Source: a bacterium (GTDB lineage Bacteria; Oederibacteriota; CAKKQC01). From it: a stretch of 64,000 nt of DNA. Both the position numbers and the translations under genes were made by a program. Positions 5,937 through 12,346 of this stretch are shown here, piece after piece. Positions within the stretch are counted from its first letter, which is position 1. Each line of letters opens with the position of its first letter. The DNA lies in assembly GCA_919901855.1 (NCBI GenBank), contig CAKKQC010000012.1:62001-126000 (forward strand), written 5' to 3'. A model generated the notes under the pieces. That model was not told the origin of the DNA and made no database searches. It saw only the letters and a program-made list of their open reading frames with translations.

Positions 5937-7798
5937 TCCGGCGCTGGTTTGCCGCGTTGCTGCTGGCGCTACTCGCCGGGCCTGCGGCGGCGGCCCCGGT
6001 CCCGGTCTCGTATACGATCCACACGAGCGGTTGGGGCCCCGGCCTCGAGTCTGTGACCGTGGTGCGACAAGCCCAAACCATCCCGGCGGGCTCCTGCTAC
6101 ACGTGCCCCGCCTCCTGCCAGACCGTGCCGACCGTGCCCACGGTGCTTCTTACCGGGGTGGCACAGGTTCCGGTGGGCGAGACGAACGTGAGCTTCCAGG
6201 TGACGGTCGGCGGGGGCGGGACGTACGTGCAGACCGGGGGCTGGGGATGGAGCACGTATGGCTCCTGCCACGGGGCGAACAGCGGACAAGGACCGGAGAG
6301 CGGAGGAGCGGTCCGGGTCCCGGCGAGTTGTTTCGAGTTCAGCGTGGGGGTGAAGACCCAGGTCGTGCCGGGATACTGCGCGTGCGTGAGGAATCCGAGC
6401 GGCGGGTGCGCGTACGGCTGCAACGAGGTGGGAGCGTCGGTGTGCGCGAACCAGGACTCGATCATCCTGGCTGTAACGTACAAGCGCCAATCGGCGACAG
6501 CCCCCAAGAGCTGCGATCAGACGGGGTCTTCGGTGATCGAGCCGGACGCGCAGTGGCATGTAGTGGGGAGCGCGACGTGCATGACGGGGCCGGACGTGCC
6601 GGAGTCCTGGACGGGAAACGCCTATCCAACGGAGCAGAGCGACGTCCGCGTGGAGTCTCGGATGGTCGCGGATGCGGGCGACCCGGAGGGGCCTTCGGGG
6701 CCGGTGTTGATCGCGCGGGCGGGGTGCCCGTCCGCGGGCAATCTGGAACCGGCTGAGGCACGGGTTATAGGCGGCCAGGTTGTGCAGTATGGAGGGAGCG
6801 GTCCGGTAGCGCCGATCCCGGGGGCGATCATCGACGTGGTCCGGGGATCCTACCGGACGACTGTGTCTGCCGACCCCGCGGGATGGTTCAGGATCACGGT
6901 TCCGGAGGCCGGAGCCTACTCCGTGACCGCCTCGGCTCCCGGGTTCCAGACCTACACCACGGGAGTCGACGTGTCCGGAAAGCCGGAATGCCCGCACCCC
7001 CGGAAGATCCCGCTGAAGGCGGGCTGCAGCGCTCCCGTTCCGAAGGGTATGGTGAGGATTATGGGGACGGTCACGAATGCGAACAACGGGGCACCGGTGA
7101 TTAGTGCTGACGTCGAGATCGCGGGGGGTGGCGGCGTGCTGCAGGCAAAGACGGACGGCAACGGGCGCTACTCCGTGATCGTGGCAAAGGGCAACACGTA
7201 TTCCGTTCAGGCTACGAAGGGTCTGCTGACCGCTGATCCGGTGTCGGTGAGTCCGGGCGGCGATGTCTGTGAGGCGACCGTGGATTTCGACCTGCACTGC
7301 AAGGGATGCGCACGCCCGGTTGTGGCGCAGAAGCAGTGTGACCCCGCGTGCGCCGATGAGCAACTGGACGGATCGGATGACCCGGGAGATACCGTAGGGA
7401 AGAAGGGATGCCTGGTGACGAGTGTGGCGATGATCGCCGGCACGGACCCGTGCACGGCGAACGTGGAGTTGACGCTCAATGGCTGGATAGGCACGGACGG
7501 AAAGTTTGTGTGGGAAGGGGCTTCTTTCTACGGGATGCAGAGCGAGGTCGTGGGCACCTCTGATGGTGAGCTGGCGGCGGCCCTGTGCGACACGGACACG
7601 GTCGGCGTGATCGCCAGGGTCTGCTCTTCCAACACCTCCAACGAGCATTTCGTAGTGGTGACCGGTTGCGTTTTCGATCCAACAAAGAACCGGTGTCGGT
7701 TTGCGGTCGCCGATCCAATGGCTGGTTGTTTGGGCAAATCGTATTCGTATCTGGACGACTTCGATTGTGTCCTCGAGGCAAGGAGGTTCTTCAAATGA
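5933..7798 (+). CDS. Secreted multidomain protein: carboxypeptidase-regulatory-like repeats and C39-like cysteine peptidase domain
   Basis: 621 aa from the GTG overlapping the previous stop. A signal peptide (WFAALLLALLAGPAAAA) is followed by a Cys-rich beta region with many paired cysteines (about residues 45-240). Two carboxypeptidase-regulatory-like Ig folds follow: GGQVVQYGGSG...GWFRITVPEAGAYSV (about 280-345) and MGTVTNANNGAPV...GNGRYSV (about 375-440). The C-terminal 130 residues look like a C39-type papain-like peptidase, with candidate catalytic Cys493 in GCLVTSVAM, His572 in EHFVVVTG and Asp594 in VADPMAG. I infer an exported protease or transglutaminase-like effector. The substrate is unknown and no dedicated secretion system is visible nearby. 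Codon use is less GC-biased than in the flanking genes. Confidence 0.75.
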   Translation: MIRRWFAALLLALLAGPAAAAPVPVSYTIHTSGWGPGLESVTVVRQAQTIPAGSCYTCPASCQTVPTVPTVLLTGVAQVPVGETNVSFQVTVGGGGTYVQTGGWGWSTYGSCHGANSGQGPESGGAVRVPASCFEFSVGVKTQVVPGYCACVRNPSGGCAYGCNEVGASVCANQDSIILAVTYKRQSATAPKSCDQTGSSVIEPDAQWHVVGSATCMTGPDVPESWTGNAYPTEQSDVRVESRMVADAGDPEGPSGPVLIARAGCPSAGNLEPAEARVIGGQVVQYGGSGPVAPIPGAIIDVVRGSYRTTVSADPAGWFRITVPEAGAYSVTASAPGFQTYTTGVDVSGKPECPHPRKIPLKAGCSAPVPKGMVRIMGTVTNANNGAPVISADVEIAGGGGVLQAKTDGNGRYSVIVAKGNTYSVQATKGLLTADPVSVSPGGDVCEATVDFDLHCKGCARPVVAQKQCDPACADEQLDGSDDPGDTVGKKGCLVTSVAMIAGTDPCTANVELTLNGWIGTDGKFVWEGASFYGMQSEVVGTSDGELAAALCDTDTVGVIARVCSSNTSNEHFVVVTGCVFDPTKNRCRFAVADPMAGCLGKSYSYLDDFDCVLEARRFFK

Positions 7799-8661
7799 GA
7801 ATCGGCTGTCTTGGATACCTGGCCCTGATCACGTACTTGGGTTCATCTCCGGCATACGGGGCGATCAAGGAACACGGTCTCATCATCGGAACGGGCGTTC
7901 CCCCTGCCACGATCCTGGTGATAGACGAGCAGGGAAGGCGGGCGGGAGTGGATCCGATGATAACCTTGGACGAAGTGGGCCGTCCTCCGGTGGAAGTTCT
8001 TCCAGGAGAACCTCCTCGCCATCGCAAACTTGGGGTTCTCATGGAGATCCCCAGGACCGATACGGACGTTCAGAACATCGGGTCTGACGAGCCGCCCTAC
8101 GAGCCGCAGCGCACTACCGGCTGGTACTCGACGATCAGTGATGGGGGCACCCAGACGTACACCGTGATCCTGAGAGGGCTGCAGGCGGGAGCAAGCAAGA
8201 TATATGTTAGGCCACTTCGTCGTGGTGGTCGCAGTGCAATGCTCCCCGTGACCTACGTCTCCGTGCTCGTGGATGCCGGGAAGACGCGGGAGTTGCGGGT
8301 GGCTTTCGATCCGCCCGGGAACTACGCGTTAACGATTGAGCGGGCGGTGTCGTCAACGGAGCTGGCGGAGGATGTGCAGATTGCGTGGCGTCTGGGGCAG
8401 ATCAGTCCGGAGGGAGTATGCCGGAGTCTCGAGGCGAAGGCGGACGCGGTGAGGGAAGCCCTGAAGCGCGGGCGTGGCACTTCGGCAAGAGCGGCCATCA
8501 AGGCGTTCCTCGAGGAACTCAAGGCCCAGGGCGGGAAGCACGTGCATGAACCCGCGCTCACGATTCTGCGCGAGGAGGCGGAGGCCCTGCTGAATCCTCC
8601 TCCGCCGATGCCGAAACCGAAGAAGCCCAAGTCGGGAGCGTCCGCGAAGCCGACGAAGTAA
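7795..8661 (+). CDS. Secreted protein with C-terminal FIMAH-like domain
   Basis: 288 aa. The ATG overlaps the previous stop (ATGA) and is preceded by AAGGAGG, the best Shine-Dalgarno in the region. The N-terminus MRIGCLGYLALITYLGSSPAYG is a signal peptide; cysteine 5 lies too early for a normal lipobox. The middle is a beta-rich region of unknown fold. Residues about 195-265 (GQISPEGVCRSLEAK, then helices ending ALTILREEAEALL) match the pattern I associate with FIMAH domains, small helical modules at the ends of exported proteins. The extreme C-terminus is a Pro/Lys-rich tail (PPPPMPKPKKPK). Last gene of the island operon; probable partner or anchor of the C39-like protein. Confidence 0.7.
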   Translation: MRIGCLGYLALITYLGSSPAYGAIKEHGLIIGTGVPPATILVIDEQGRRAGVDPMITLDEVGRPPVEVLPGEPPRHRKLGVLMEIPRTDTDVQNIGSDEPPYEPQRTTGWYSTISDGGTQTYTVILRGLQAGASKIYVRPLRRGGRSAMLPVTYVSVLVDAGKTRELRVAFDPPGNYALTIERAVSSTELAEDVQIAWRLGQISPEGVCRSLEAKADAVREALKRGRGTSARAAIKAFLEELKAQGGKHVHEPALTILREEAEALLNPPPPMPKPKKPKSGASAKPTK

Positions 8662-8927: not shown

Positions 8928-10649
8928 ATGGCTGAACCAACGCAGACGCCCGCCTCCCCGCCCCCCGCCCCGCCGGCCCGAGGCGGGTTCCGCGTCGGCC
9001 TCCGGCTGCGGTTCACGGTCTACCTGGCCGGCTTCCTGCTCCTGATCATGAGCATAGCTTCGTACCTCGTGATCAAGCAGCAGCGGAGCGCCTTGGACAA
9101 GGAGATCCGCGAGCGCGGGCTCGCCCTCGCGCGCGCGCTGGCCGCCAACTCGGTCGAGCCGCTCTCGCTCGGCGGCGAGGCGCCGCTCCAGCTCATGCTG
9201 CTCGTCAAGACCGTCATCCAGATGTCGGACGAGAACGACGCGGCGGACATGCGGGGGCGGCTGACGGAGAGCCTGGGGGCGATGGTCTGGCACGAGCTGA
9301 TCGGGTTCGGGCGGGGCGCGGGGGGCGCGCGGGTGCGCAACGAAGGCGTACTGTTCGCCAAGATCGTGGACCCGGCGGGCAAGAAGATCGCGATGGCGGA
9401 CGCGCAGAAGCCGCCCGAGCAGTGGGTGGCGGAGATGGACCAGCCCTACCAGCCGCCGGCCAAGACGACGCTCCTGTCCCCGGGCGAGGACGAGCGGGTC
9501 TGGGAGAGCCCGGACGACGGCGGCATCTACGTCATCGCGGTGCCGATCCACCAGCGCACGGGGGCCACCGGGGCGGAGGCCCTGGAGGCGCCTTCCCCGG
9601 CCCCGGGGGCCGGCGGGCCCGCCTCGACCGGGGGCTCGGCCCTGCCGCCGGTATCCGCGGCCCCGGGCGGGTTCATGGGGTCCGTGTACCTCGGCATGAG
9701 CCAGTCGATCGTGCGGCGGGCGCTCGCGGTCGCGTTCGCGAAGCTCGTGTACGTGGCTGCCTCCGTCCTCGTCCTGGCCGTCATCCTCGCGCTGTTCATC
9801 TCGGGTACGCTCGTCGGGCCCATCCATCAGCTCCGCGATGGCGCCCTGGCGGTCGGCGCGGGCCAGCTCGACACCCACGTCGGCATCCGGCGGCGCGACG
9901 AGCTGGGCGAGCTGGCCTTCGCGTTCAATGGGATGACCAAGGGGCTGGCGGAGCGCGAGCTGATCCGGGGGGCCTTCGGGGCCTACGTCTCCTCCGACGT
10001 GCTCACGGACATTCTCGCGAACCCCGAGGCGATGAAGACCATCGGCGGGGTCAAGCGCACGGTCACGATGGTGTTCACGGACGTCCGCGGGTTCACGGCC
10101 ATGGCCGGCGTGCTCGAGGCCGAGCAGGTCGTCGCCGTCATCAACGACTACCTCGACCTCCAGGCGAAGCAGGTCCGCGTGCACAAGGGCCACGTCGACA
10201 AGTACATCGGGGACGCCGTGCGCGCGGTCTTCGGGATTCCGTCCGAGGCTCCCGACGACGTCGAGCGGGCGGTCCGGTGCGCGTGGGGGATCAAGCAGGA
10301 CGTCGCGAAGCTCGTAGCGGACCGGAAATCCCGGGGGGAGCCTCATCCGCTGATCGGGATCGGGGTCGACACGGGCGAGGTCGTCGCCGGCAACATCGGC
10401 GCCGCGAACGCCAAGCTCGAGTACACGGTCATCGGCGATCCCGTGGGGATGTCCGAGGCGTGCATGGACGCCGCGCGAGACCCGGACGCGTCCGGCGGCC
10501 AGGTGGTCCTGACGGAGAGCACGTACGGGAAGGTCCGGGACCTCGTCGAGGTCCGGGAGATGCCCCCGCTAAAGCTGCAGGGGCGCGACACGGAGACGAA
10601 GATATACGAGCTCGTGGGGCTCAAGACCCCCGCGAGCTCAGGGGGTTGA
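8928..10649 (+). CDS. Membrane class III nucleotide cyclase, C1-like half (metal aspartates kept)
   Basis: 573 aa. TM1 at about residues 20-42, an extracytoplasmic sensor region to about 270, TM2 at about 274-297, a HAMP domain (GPIHQLRDGA...DELGELAFAFNGM) and a class III cyclase catalytic domain from about residue 375. Both metal-binding aspartates are present: Asp385 in VFTDVRGFT and Asp429 in KYIGDAV. The transition-state Asn and Arg, normally in VNxAAR, are replaced by Gly507 and Ala511 (GDPVGMSEA). A homodimer therefore should not cyclise ATP by the normal mechanism. The next gene, one base further on, has the opposite defects, so the two are predicted to form an obligate heterodimer like mammalian C1/C2. 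ATG 8928 is preferred to 8910 because MAEP aligns with VADS of the neighbour. Confidence 0.9.
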   Translation: MAEPTQTPASPPPAPPARGGFRVGLRLRFTVYLAGFLLLIMSIASYLVIKQQRSALDKEIRERGLALARALAANSVEPLSLGGEAPLQLMLLVKTVIQMSDENDAADMRGRLTESLGAMVWHELIGFGRGAGGARVRNEGVLFAKIVDPAGKKIAMADAQKPPEQWVAEMDQPYQPPAKTTLLSPGEDERVWESPDDGGIYVIAVPIHQRTGATGAEALEAPSPAPGAGGPASTGGSALPPVSAAPGGFMGSVYLGMSQSIVRRALAVAFAKLVYVAASVLVLAVILALFISGTLVGPIHQLRDGALAVGAGQLDTHVGIRRRDELGELAFAFNGMTKGLAERELIRGAFGAYVSSDVLTDILANPEAMKTIGGVKRTVTMVFTDVRGFTAMAGVLEAEQVVAVINDYLDLQAKQVRVHKGHVDKYIGDAVRAVFGIPSEAPDDVERAVRCAWGIKQDVAKLVADRKSRGEPHPLIGIGVDTGEVVAGNIGAANAKLEYTVIGDPVGMSEACMDAARDPDASGGQVVLTESTYGKVRDLVEVREMPPLKLQGRDTETKIYELVGLKTPASSGG

Positions 10650-10651
10650 CG

Positions 10652-12346
10652 GTGGCGGACTCTTCCCCGCACGCGCCCGCGCCGGCGCCCGACAAGATCC
10701 GCGTCCGGTTCGGGCTGCGGTGGCGGTTCACGCTCTACATCACCGGCATCACGCTGCTGGTCATGGCGATCGTCGCGTTCATCGTCAGCCGCGAGATCCG
10801 GAGCACCCTCGACGCTCAGATCAAGGAGCGGGGGCTCGCGCTCGCGCGCAACCTCGCGGACTCCTGTGTCGAGCCGATGCAGCTCAAGGACGAGCGGACC
10901 CTCGCGCTCATGATGCTCGTGAAGGAATACGTCCAGAGCGGCGGCGGCGCCGTGGCCCGGGTCCAGCTGCTCGAGCGCCAGTCCCTGCCCTCGCGGGTCT
11001 GGGCCTACGTCGTGCGGCTGGGCCAGGAGCAGGTCCTCGAAGGCATCCGCAACGAGGGACTGGTGACGGCCATGGTCGTGGACCCCGAGGGGCGGACCCT
11101 CGCGTTCGCGGACGCCGTCGTGGAACAGCAGGACTGGCTATCGCGGCTCGACCAGCCGTACCAGCCCGATCCGGGGGCGGGCCTGCTCGGCCCCGGCGAG
11201 GAGTTCCACGTCTGGACCAGCCAGGCCCGGGGGTTGTACATCCTGGCCGCGCCCGTGATCGCGTCCGCGGGCACGGGCGCCGGGGCGGCCGGGTCCTCGT
11301 CGGCGTCTTCCGCCGCCCCGGCTGCGTCCGCGGCCCCGGCTGCGGACGCACCCGGGAGCGCCGCCCCCGCGTTCTACGGCGCGGTCTACCTCTCCGTCAG
11401 CCAGGGCCTCGTGGACCGCACGGTCGCGCGCGCCATCGCGGTCCTGATCCTGATGGCCGCCGGTCTCGTGGCCGTGGGCGCCATCGTCGCCGTCTTCTTC
11501 GCCGCGTTCCTGACGGCGCCGATCCGCCTTCTCACGCAGGGAGTGCAGGCCATCGCCGCGGGCGACTTCAACATGCGGATCCGCCTCCAGCGGTCGGACG
11601 AGCTCGGCGAGCTCACGGACGCGTTCAACCAGATGGCGAAGGGGCTCGCGGAGCGCGAGCTCATGCGCGGCGCGTTCTCCGCCTACGTGTCCAAGGACCT
11701 CCTGGCCGAGATCATCAAGAACCCGGACGCGATGAAGCTCGGCGGCTCCCGCAAGGAAGGCACGGTCATGTTCACCTTCTTCGGGAACCACCACGAGCTG
11801 CCCGCGCTGATGGCCAAACTCGATCCTGAAGCCTTCGTCCGGGTCATCAACGACTACCTCGAGCTCCAGTCCCGGATGGTGTTCGACCACCAGGGCCATC
11901 TCGACAAGTTCGTGGGTGAGGAGGTCATGGCCGTCTGGGGCGCGACGAGCCCGGTGCAAGGTCACGCGCTCTGGGCCGTCAAGTGCGCGCTCGCGATCGA
12001 GGACGCGGTGACCGAGCTCAACAAGCGCCGGGAGCGCCAGGGCGATATGACGACGAACATCTCGATCGGCATCAACTCGGGGTCGATGGTCGCGGGGAAC
12101 ATGGGGTCGCAGGACGGCAAGCGCGACTACACGGTCATCAGCGCGGACGTGAACTTCGCCGCCCGGCTCGCGGGCGCGGGGGCCATCGTGCACGGCGGCG
12201 AGATCTGGGTGGGGGAGAACACGTACGAGCTGGTCCGGGACGCCGTCGAGCTCCGCGAGAAGCGCGAGGTGACCTTCAAGGGCATCCCGGACCCGCAGCC
12301 CGTGTACATCATCACCGGGCTGAAGGCGGGCGCGCCCGCCGCCTGA
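10652..12346 (+). CDS. Membrane class III nucleotide cyclase, C2-like half (Asn/Arg kept, metal aspartates lost)
   Basis: 564 aa from GTG 10652, with AGGGGG a few bases upstream and only two bases after the preceding stop. The architecture is the same as its neighbour's: TM1 about 20-42, sensor region containing an Ala/Ser-rich linker (about 205-235), TM2 about 259-285, HAMP, cyclase domain from about 365. The first metal aspartate is Phe376 (MFTFFGNHH) and the second is Glu423 (KFVGEEV). The catalytic Asn501 and Arg505 (ADVNFAARL) and the purine-site Lys are intact. This is the pattern of mammalian C2 domains. The sensor regions share the E-R-G-L-A-L-A-R segment and a D-Q-P-Y-Q-P motif, so the pair arose by duplication and then specialised. 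Confidence 0.9.
   Translation: MADSSPHAPAPAPDKIRVRFGLRWRFTLYITGITLLVMAIVAFIVSREIRSTLDAQIKERGLALARNLADSCVEPMQLKDERTLALMMLVKEYVQSGGGAVARVQLLERQSLPSRVWAYVVRLGQEQVLEGIRNEGLVTAMVVDPEGRTLAFADAVVEQQDWLSRLDQPYQPDPGAGLLGPGEEFHVWTSQARGLYILAAPVIASAGTGAGAAGSSSASSAAPAASAAPAADAPGSAAPAFYGAVYLSVSQGLVDRTVARAIAVLILMAAGLVAVGAIVAVFFAAFLTAPIRLLTQGVQAIAAGDFNMRIRLQRSDELGELTDAFNQMAKGLAERELMRGAFSAYVSKDLLAEIIKNPDAMKLGGSRKEGTVMFTFFGNHHELPALMAKLDPEAFVRVINDYLELQSRMVFDHQGHLDKFVGEEVMAVWGATSPVQGHALWAVKCALAIEDAVTELNKRRERQGDMTTNISIGINSGSMVAGNMGSQDGKRDYTVISADVNFAARLAGAGAIVHGGEIWVGENTYELVRDAVELREKREVTFKGIPDPQPVYIITGLKAGAPAA

Follow-up and report, generated by a model that had tools for sequence, protein, structure and literature searches.

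Prokaryotic class III cyclases are described as typically homodimers, and the animal pseudoheterodimer is traced to a duplication with fusion that probably took place in an early eukaryote (PMC4886424, PMC4821796, PMC9552081). The class IIIb enzymes CyaB, CyaC and Cya2 are homodimers with two identical complete sites, and Rv1625c of class IIIa is likewise a homodimer, for which complementing heterodimers have been made solely from engineered mutants (PMC4821796). In mammalian AC1-9, on the contrary, the C1 half keeps the metal aspartates while the C2 half keeps the base-specifying residues, the Asn/Arg couple and the Lys, giving one productive and one degenerate site. The literature searched, which covered few subscription journals, held no report of a natural bacterial complementary cyclase pair or fused pair. 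Here we describe two adjacent bacterial genes, P1 and P2, that divide the catalytic residues in this C1/C2 manner and whose products very probably function solely as partners.

The window, a stretch of 64,000 nucleotides of an Oederibacteriota contig, carries both genes on its forward strand (Table 1). The P1 frame runs from an ATG at 8928 to a stop ending at 10649 (translated 8928-10646), and P2 starts with a GTG at 10652 (translated 10652-12343), a TTG at 10646 being a possible alternative, with a 4-nt overlap (TTGA) at the P1 stop; with either start the two genes are tightly coupled. Both proteins, which are 42% identical, have the same order of parts: TM1, an extracytoplasmic Cache-like sensor, TM2, a HAMP domain and a class III cyclase domain. 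Both belong to PF00211 (56.8 bits for P1 and 56.4 for P2 against a curated cut-off of 21.9; E 3.8e-15 for the P2 domain). The P1 sensor gave a weak Pfam match to sCache_3_2 under its cut-off, and all NCBIfam matches to P1 and P2 fell far under cut-off, mainly across the HAMP region. AlphaFold models of the single chains (mean pLDDT 82) predict for both a long N-terminal helix containing TM1, then an alpha/beta sensor, a TM2 helix that continues into the HAMP domain, and the cyclase domain. The nearest structures to both cyclase domains are CyaB, CyaC and Cya2 (Z about 25-26; P2 against CyaB 3r5g, 26.5), and neither the Foldseek nor the VIA rankings tell C1-like from C2-like domains. Downstream of the pair lies nadA; directly upstream, at 7651-8658, is a gene whose product carries a FIMAH domain at its C terminus, itself preceded by one for a CarboxypepD_reg-like protein.

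Table 1. Features of the P1/P2 locus, in positions of the window
Feature	Position	Strand	Basis
P1, 573 aa, C1-like half (metal Asp kept)	8928..10649	+	translation, Pfam, AlphaFold model
P1 HAMP domain, residues 290-340	9795..9947	+	PF00672 E 1.2e-13
P1 cyclase domain, residues 377-556	10056..10595	+	PF00211 E 2.8e-15; CyaB 3r5g Z 26.4
P1 Asp385, metal ligand 1, kept	10080..10082	+	translation and alignment
P1 Asp429, metal ligand 2, kept	10212..10214	+	translation and alignment
P1 Gly507, transition-state Asn position, lost	10446..10448	+	translation and alignment
P1 Ala511, transition-state Arg position, lost	10458..10460	+	translation and alignment
P1 Gln551, triphosphate Lys position, lost	10578..10580	+	alignment
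P2, 564 aa, C2-like half (base, transition-state and phosphate residues kept)	10652..12346	+	translation, Pfam, model
P2 HAMP domain, residues 282-332	11495..11647	+	PF00672 E 9.9e-15
P2 F376-F377-G378-N379, 3-residue insertion replacing metal Asp 1	11777..11788	+	alignment
P2 Lys419, adenine-specifying, kept	11906..11908	+	alignment
P2 Glu423, metal Asp 2 position	11918..11920	+	translation and alignment
P2 Thr494, class IIIb base-specifying, kept	12131..12133	+	alignment
P2 Asn501, transition-state, kept	12152..12154	+	translation and alignment
P2 Arg505, transition-state, kept	12164..12166	+	translation and alignment
P2 Lys543, triphosphate Lys, kept	12278..12280	+	alignment

Catalytic positions were set by HMMER alignment to Cya2 (2w01), CyaB (3r5g) and CyaC (1wc0), and the columns D385, D429, N507, R511 and K551 are nearly invariant in a 40-sequence alignment. 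The initial annotation had read P1 as keeping both metal aspartates with Gly507 and Ala511 in place of the transition-state Asn and Arg, and P2 as carrying Phe376 and Glu423 at the metal positions while keeping Asn501 and Arg505. Every one of these residues is exact in the translations, and the solved cyclases place them at the same positions; metal position 1 of P2 may be either F376 or N379, depending on how the gap is placed around the FFG insertion, and neither is Asp. That reading had missed a third complementary loss, at the triphosphate Lys, where P1 has Q551 (His in the sister genus) and P2 keeps K543. It had also missed that the base-specifying Lys and Thr are kept in both proteins (K425/T500 in P1, K419/T494 in P2), so that each carries the Lys plus Thr/Ser signature of a class IIIb adenylyl cyclase. 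Neither chain holds the D, D, N, R and K set of a homodimeric enzyme, which the two hold jointly, and the catalytic residues are thus split complementarily between two partners, as in C1/C2-type cyclases. In place of the metal-Asp loop P2 has FFGNHHELP (11777-11803), identical in the sister genus, which might form a novel site for a metal or a ligand. Five residues past its lost Arg, P1 has Arg516, which is conserved in that genus.

We consider it highly likely that P1 and P2 derive from a duplicated homodimeric cyclase and that each has specialised as one half of a single heterodimer. The ancestor would have been a homodimeric membrane adenylyl cyclase with the transmembrane, Cache-like, HAMP and class IIIb parts still seen in both proteins. 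In the complete interface site P1 would supply both metal aspartates, and P2 would supply Lys419 and Thr494 to specify adenine, the transition-state residues Asn501 and Arg505, and the triphosphate lysine Lys543. The second site of the P1:P2 dimer, with neither metal ligands nor transition-state residues, would be catalytically dead, as would P1:P1 and P2:P2, each lacking a complete site. The sensors would set the active geometry through the HAMP domains and linker helices, and the product would be cAMP, destined for cNMP-binding receptors encoded in the genome. Such signalling is plausible, since the genome has 13 cNMP-binding domain matches and, besides P1 and P2, one complete class IIIb cyclase.

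Precedents exist for this behaviour. The point mutants D300A and R376A of Rv1625c are inactive singly and active together (PMC4821796), and homodimers of soluble guanylate cyclase alpha or beta are inactive because the residues are split between the subunits (PMC3591389); by analogy, P1:P2 would be expected to be active and the homodimers dead. Complementary residues are no proof that homodimers are absent, since the guanylate cyclase catalytic domains alone do form homodimers, inactive ones. Of the obligate heterodimer with one productive site that the initial annotation proposed, the heterodimer and its single site are strongly supported by the complementary losses, their recurrence and the completeness of unpaired homologues, while we infer from the sequences that the partnership is obligate. 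We likewise infer dimer formation, catalysis, ATP as the substrate and regulation by both sensors. The suggestion that the degenerate site binds a regulator draws an analogy with forskolin and with a proposal made for soluble guanylate cyclase, and goes beyond the evidence; so does an output that would need two different signals, or two sensors meeting, which is speculation. P1 and P2 may in fact sense the same ligand, because their sensor regions are 44% identical.

The initial annotation had called for a search of other genomes for the same adjacent pair with co-loss of these residues, and such pairs were found. In another genus of the same family (G001) the same pair with the same losses stands upstream of nadA, as in the window, and spans two contigs whose overlap, 185 bp at 98.9%, falls within the P1 gene. 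Between the two genera, conservation of the catalytic domain is 78% for P1 and 70% for P2, and dN/dS values of 0.33 and 0.38, which are rough given the GC-rich composition, indicate purifying selection on both genes. Another family of the phylum (G010) has a tandem pair that is again complementary and reversed in gene order relative to the window: its first gene, with LVHG and VREE, has L and E replacing the two aspartates and keeps N and R, and its second keeps both aspartates and has T and N replacing N and R. No single homologue read within the phylum's clade lacks any of the catalytic residues. The C2-like members of the window and G010 pairs share EEVMAVWG and GINSG, which suggests that the pairs may have a single origin with their genes reordered; the tree does not show this, being undecided between one shared duplication and the alternatives (AU p 0.42, 0.42, 0.35, 0.22).

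Further pairs were found in the unrelated Riflebacteria, on whose cyclases the literature searched held no report. Two loci there are arrays of large-sensor cyclases in which metal-lost types alternate with Asn/Arg-lost types, and 20 further regions yielded both tandem pairs and fused ORFs; the latter are about 2,000-2,400 aa long, and their C1-like domain lies in mid-protein and their C2-like domain at the end. Eleven single ORFs of this length and order (L137-L144 and L216, in G060, G059 and G202, which are Riflebacteria and a similar genome) are, as read from their residues, bacterial fused pseudoheterodimers. The tandem arrays L156 and L215 alternate C1-like and C2-like genes, up to six in number, and related matches number 38 in G059 and 53 in G060. 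Nine C2-like domains spanning both lineages show no variation at Lys, Thr, Asn, Arg and Lys, and in the tree the Riflebacteria sequences form their own clade apart from the window's group. The Riflebacteria regions were first picked for having two matches, and 20 seemingly unpaired ones were then taken as a check; the cyclases of the latter are mostly complete, and the half-site ones lie mostly at contig ends. Of 40 genomes of the Riflebacteria phylum, 15 have related C2-type domains (E < 1e-25), many of these domains in ORFs of more than 1,900 aa. When 384 genomes were surveyed, one more genome, G202, proved to have an array, of the form C1-C2-C1-C2-C1-C2; the remaining top matches outside the known pairs were complete. 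One Riflebacteria cyclase domain (L172:4418-4933) has neither metal nor transition-state residues (GKETRH) and no cyclase partner nearby.

Taken over all loci, 220 distinct catalytic domains comprise 150 complete, 33 C1-like and 31 C2-like domains, one without both sets of residues and five partial ones; the sample is non-random and the domains are not independent, so we give counts and no p-value. Complete domains almost always stand apart, 148 of the 150 having no same-strand cyclase neighbour within 4.5 kb. Among the 64 half-site domains, 27 of one kind and 27 of the other lie in complementary pairs, and those outside pairs are mostly copies from the window or G001 cut by locus or contig ends, others at contig ends, or domains whose partner was partly read; at L168 the sole neighbour of a C1-like domain is a complete cyclase. 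Since the pattern recurs in G001, G010 and the Riflebacteria, the complementary losses go beyond chance, and the split-site design appears to have evolved independently in bacteria at least twice.

Other readings of the pair must be weighed against this pattern. P2 alone might be an active, non-canonical homodimer in which E423 and the N/H/H/E of residues 379-382 bind the metals and K419, T494, N501, R505 and K543 do the rest, P1 being a regulatory pseudo-enzyme. All non-metal residues are indeed kept in P2, Glu is a conservative replacement for Asp at metal 2, and FFGNHHELP is identical in two genera, so that this conserved polar segment, together with the Glu, might still bind metal. We nevertheless judge the reading improbable, since it leaves unexplained why P1 has kept its metal aspartates and lost N, R and K alone, and the C2-like domains of G010 and the Riflebacteria share no new ligand at metal 1, where they have L, G, S, H, A, T, E or Q. 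The NHHE segment and E423 of P2, and Arg516 of P1, remain caveats to the inactivity of single chains. Degenerate class III domains are known, and as essential residues are missing from each protein, both could be without catalytic activity and act instead as receptors for a ligand or nucleotide; but random decay would yield neither complementary halves in repeated pairs nor the retention of D, D in C1-like and of K, T, N, R, K in C2-like members, which makes this very unlikely.

It is harder still to credit a transient duplication in which P1 or P2 is decaying as a pseudogene. A single duplication would suffice for a tandem pair of proteins as similar as these, but the frames are open in two genera and their catalytic domains well conserved; on this conservation and the dN/dS values we reject it. 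The heterodimer might also have a product other than cAMP, such as cGMP or, like the cyclases of Pycsar defence, a cyclic pyrimidine nucleotide. Models of the Pycsar cyclase PycC match the cyclase domains of both proteins at low E-values, as could be expected of class III domains generally, but P2, which would contribute the base side of the complete site, carries the class IIIb Lys and Thr where the guanylyl cyclase Cya2 has Glu, and among the neighbouring genes with an annotation (nadA and the gene of the FIMAH-domain protein) no Pycsar-type effector was identified; we think such a product unlikely.

It is entirely possible, though we would stop short of calling it probable, that obligate C1/C2 cyclases have evolved repeatedly in bacteria by independent events, as tandem and as fused forms in at least two lineages, each a two-sensor coincidence detector with a degenerate site for allosteric control. 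That would run counter to the homodimeric picture of bacterial class III enzymes. If so, the natural pairs and the Riflebacteria fusions would mean that bacteria took the animal route of duplication and fusion independently. The pairs would be simple systems for studying the origin of heterodimeric cyclases, and could show whether a dead site acquires a regulatory role and how a single output serves two sensors. Annotation pipelines, moreover, would need to read half-site cyclase genes as a pair.

Overall, the P1/P2 arrangement is not a new kind of enzyme. The likeness to mammalian C1/C2 halves drawn in the initial annotation holds for the partitioning of residues and not for kinship, as the two-TM, HAMP-linked class IIIb proteins are not particular relatives of the 12-TM class IIIa enzymes, and the resemblance is convergent rather than ancestral. 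AC1-9 carry both halves, with two six-helix membrane domains, in one polypeptide, whereas P1 and P2 are separate genes whose products each have two predicted long TM helices and their own sensor and HAMP domain. Soluble guanylate cyclase alpha/beta is, like P1/P2, encoded by two genes, with one complete site and inactive homodimers, but it is an animal enzyme with a haem-NO sensor and makes cGMP (PMC3591389). The NeoR/RGC rhodopsin-cyclases of chytrid fungi likewise join two membrane sensor chains in an obligate heterodimer; in RGC1 and RGC2, unlike in P1 and P2, no known catalytic residue is missing, and the system senses light and makes cGMP (PMC8815786).
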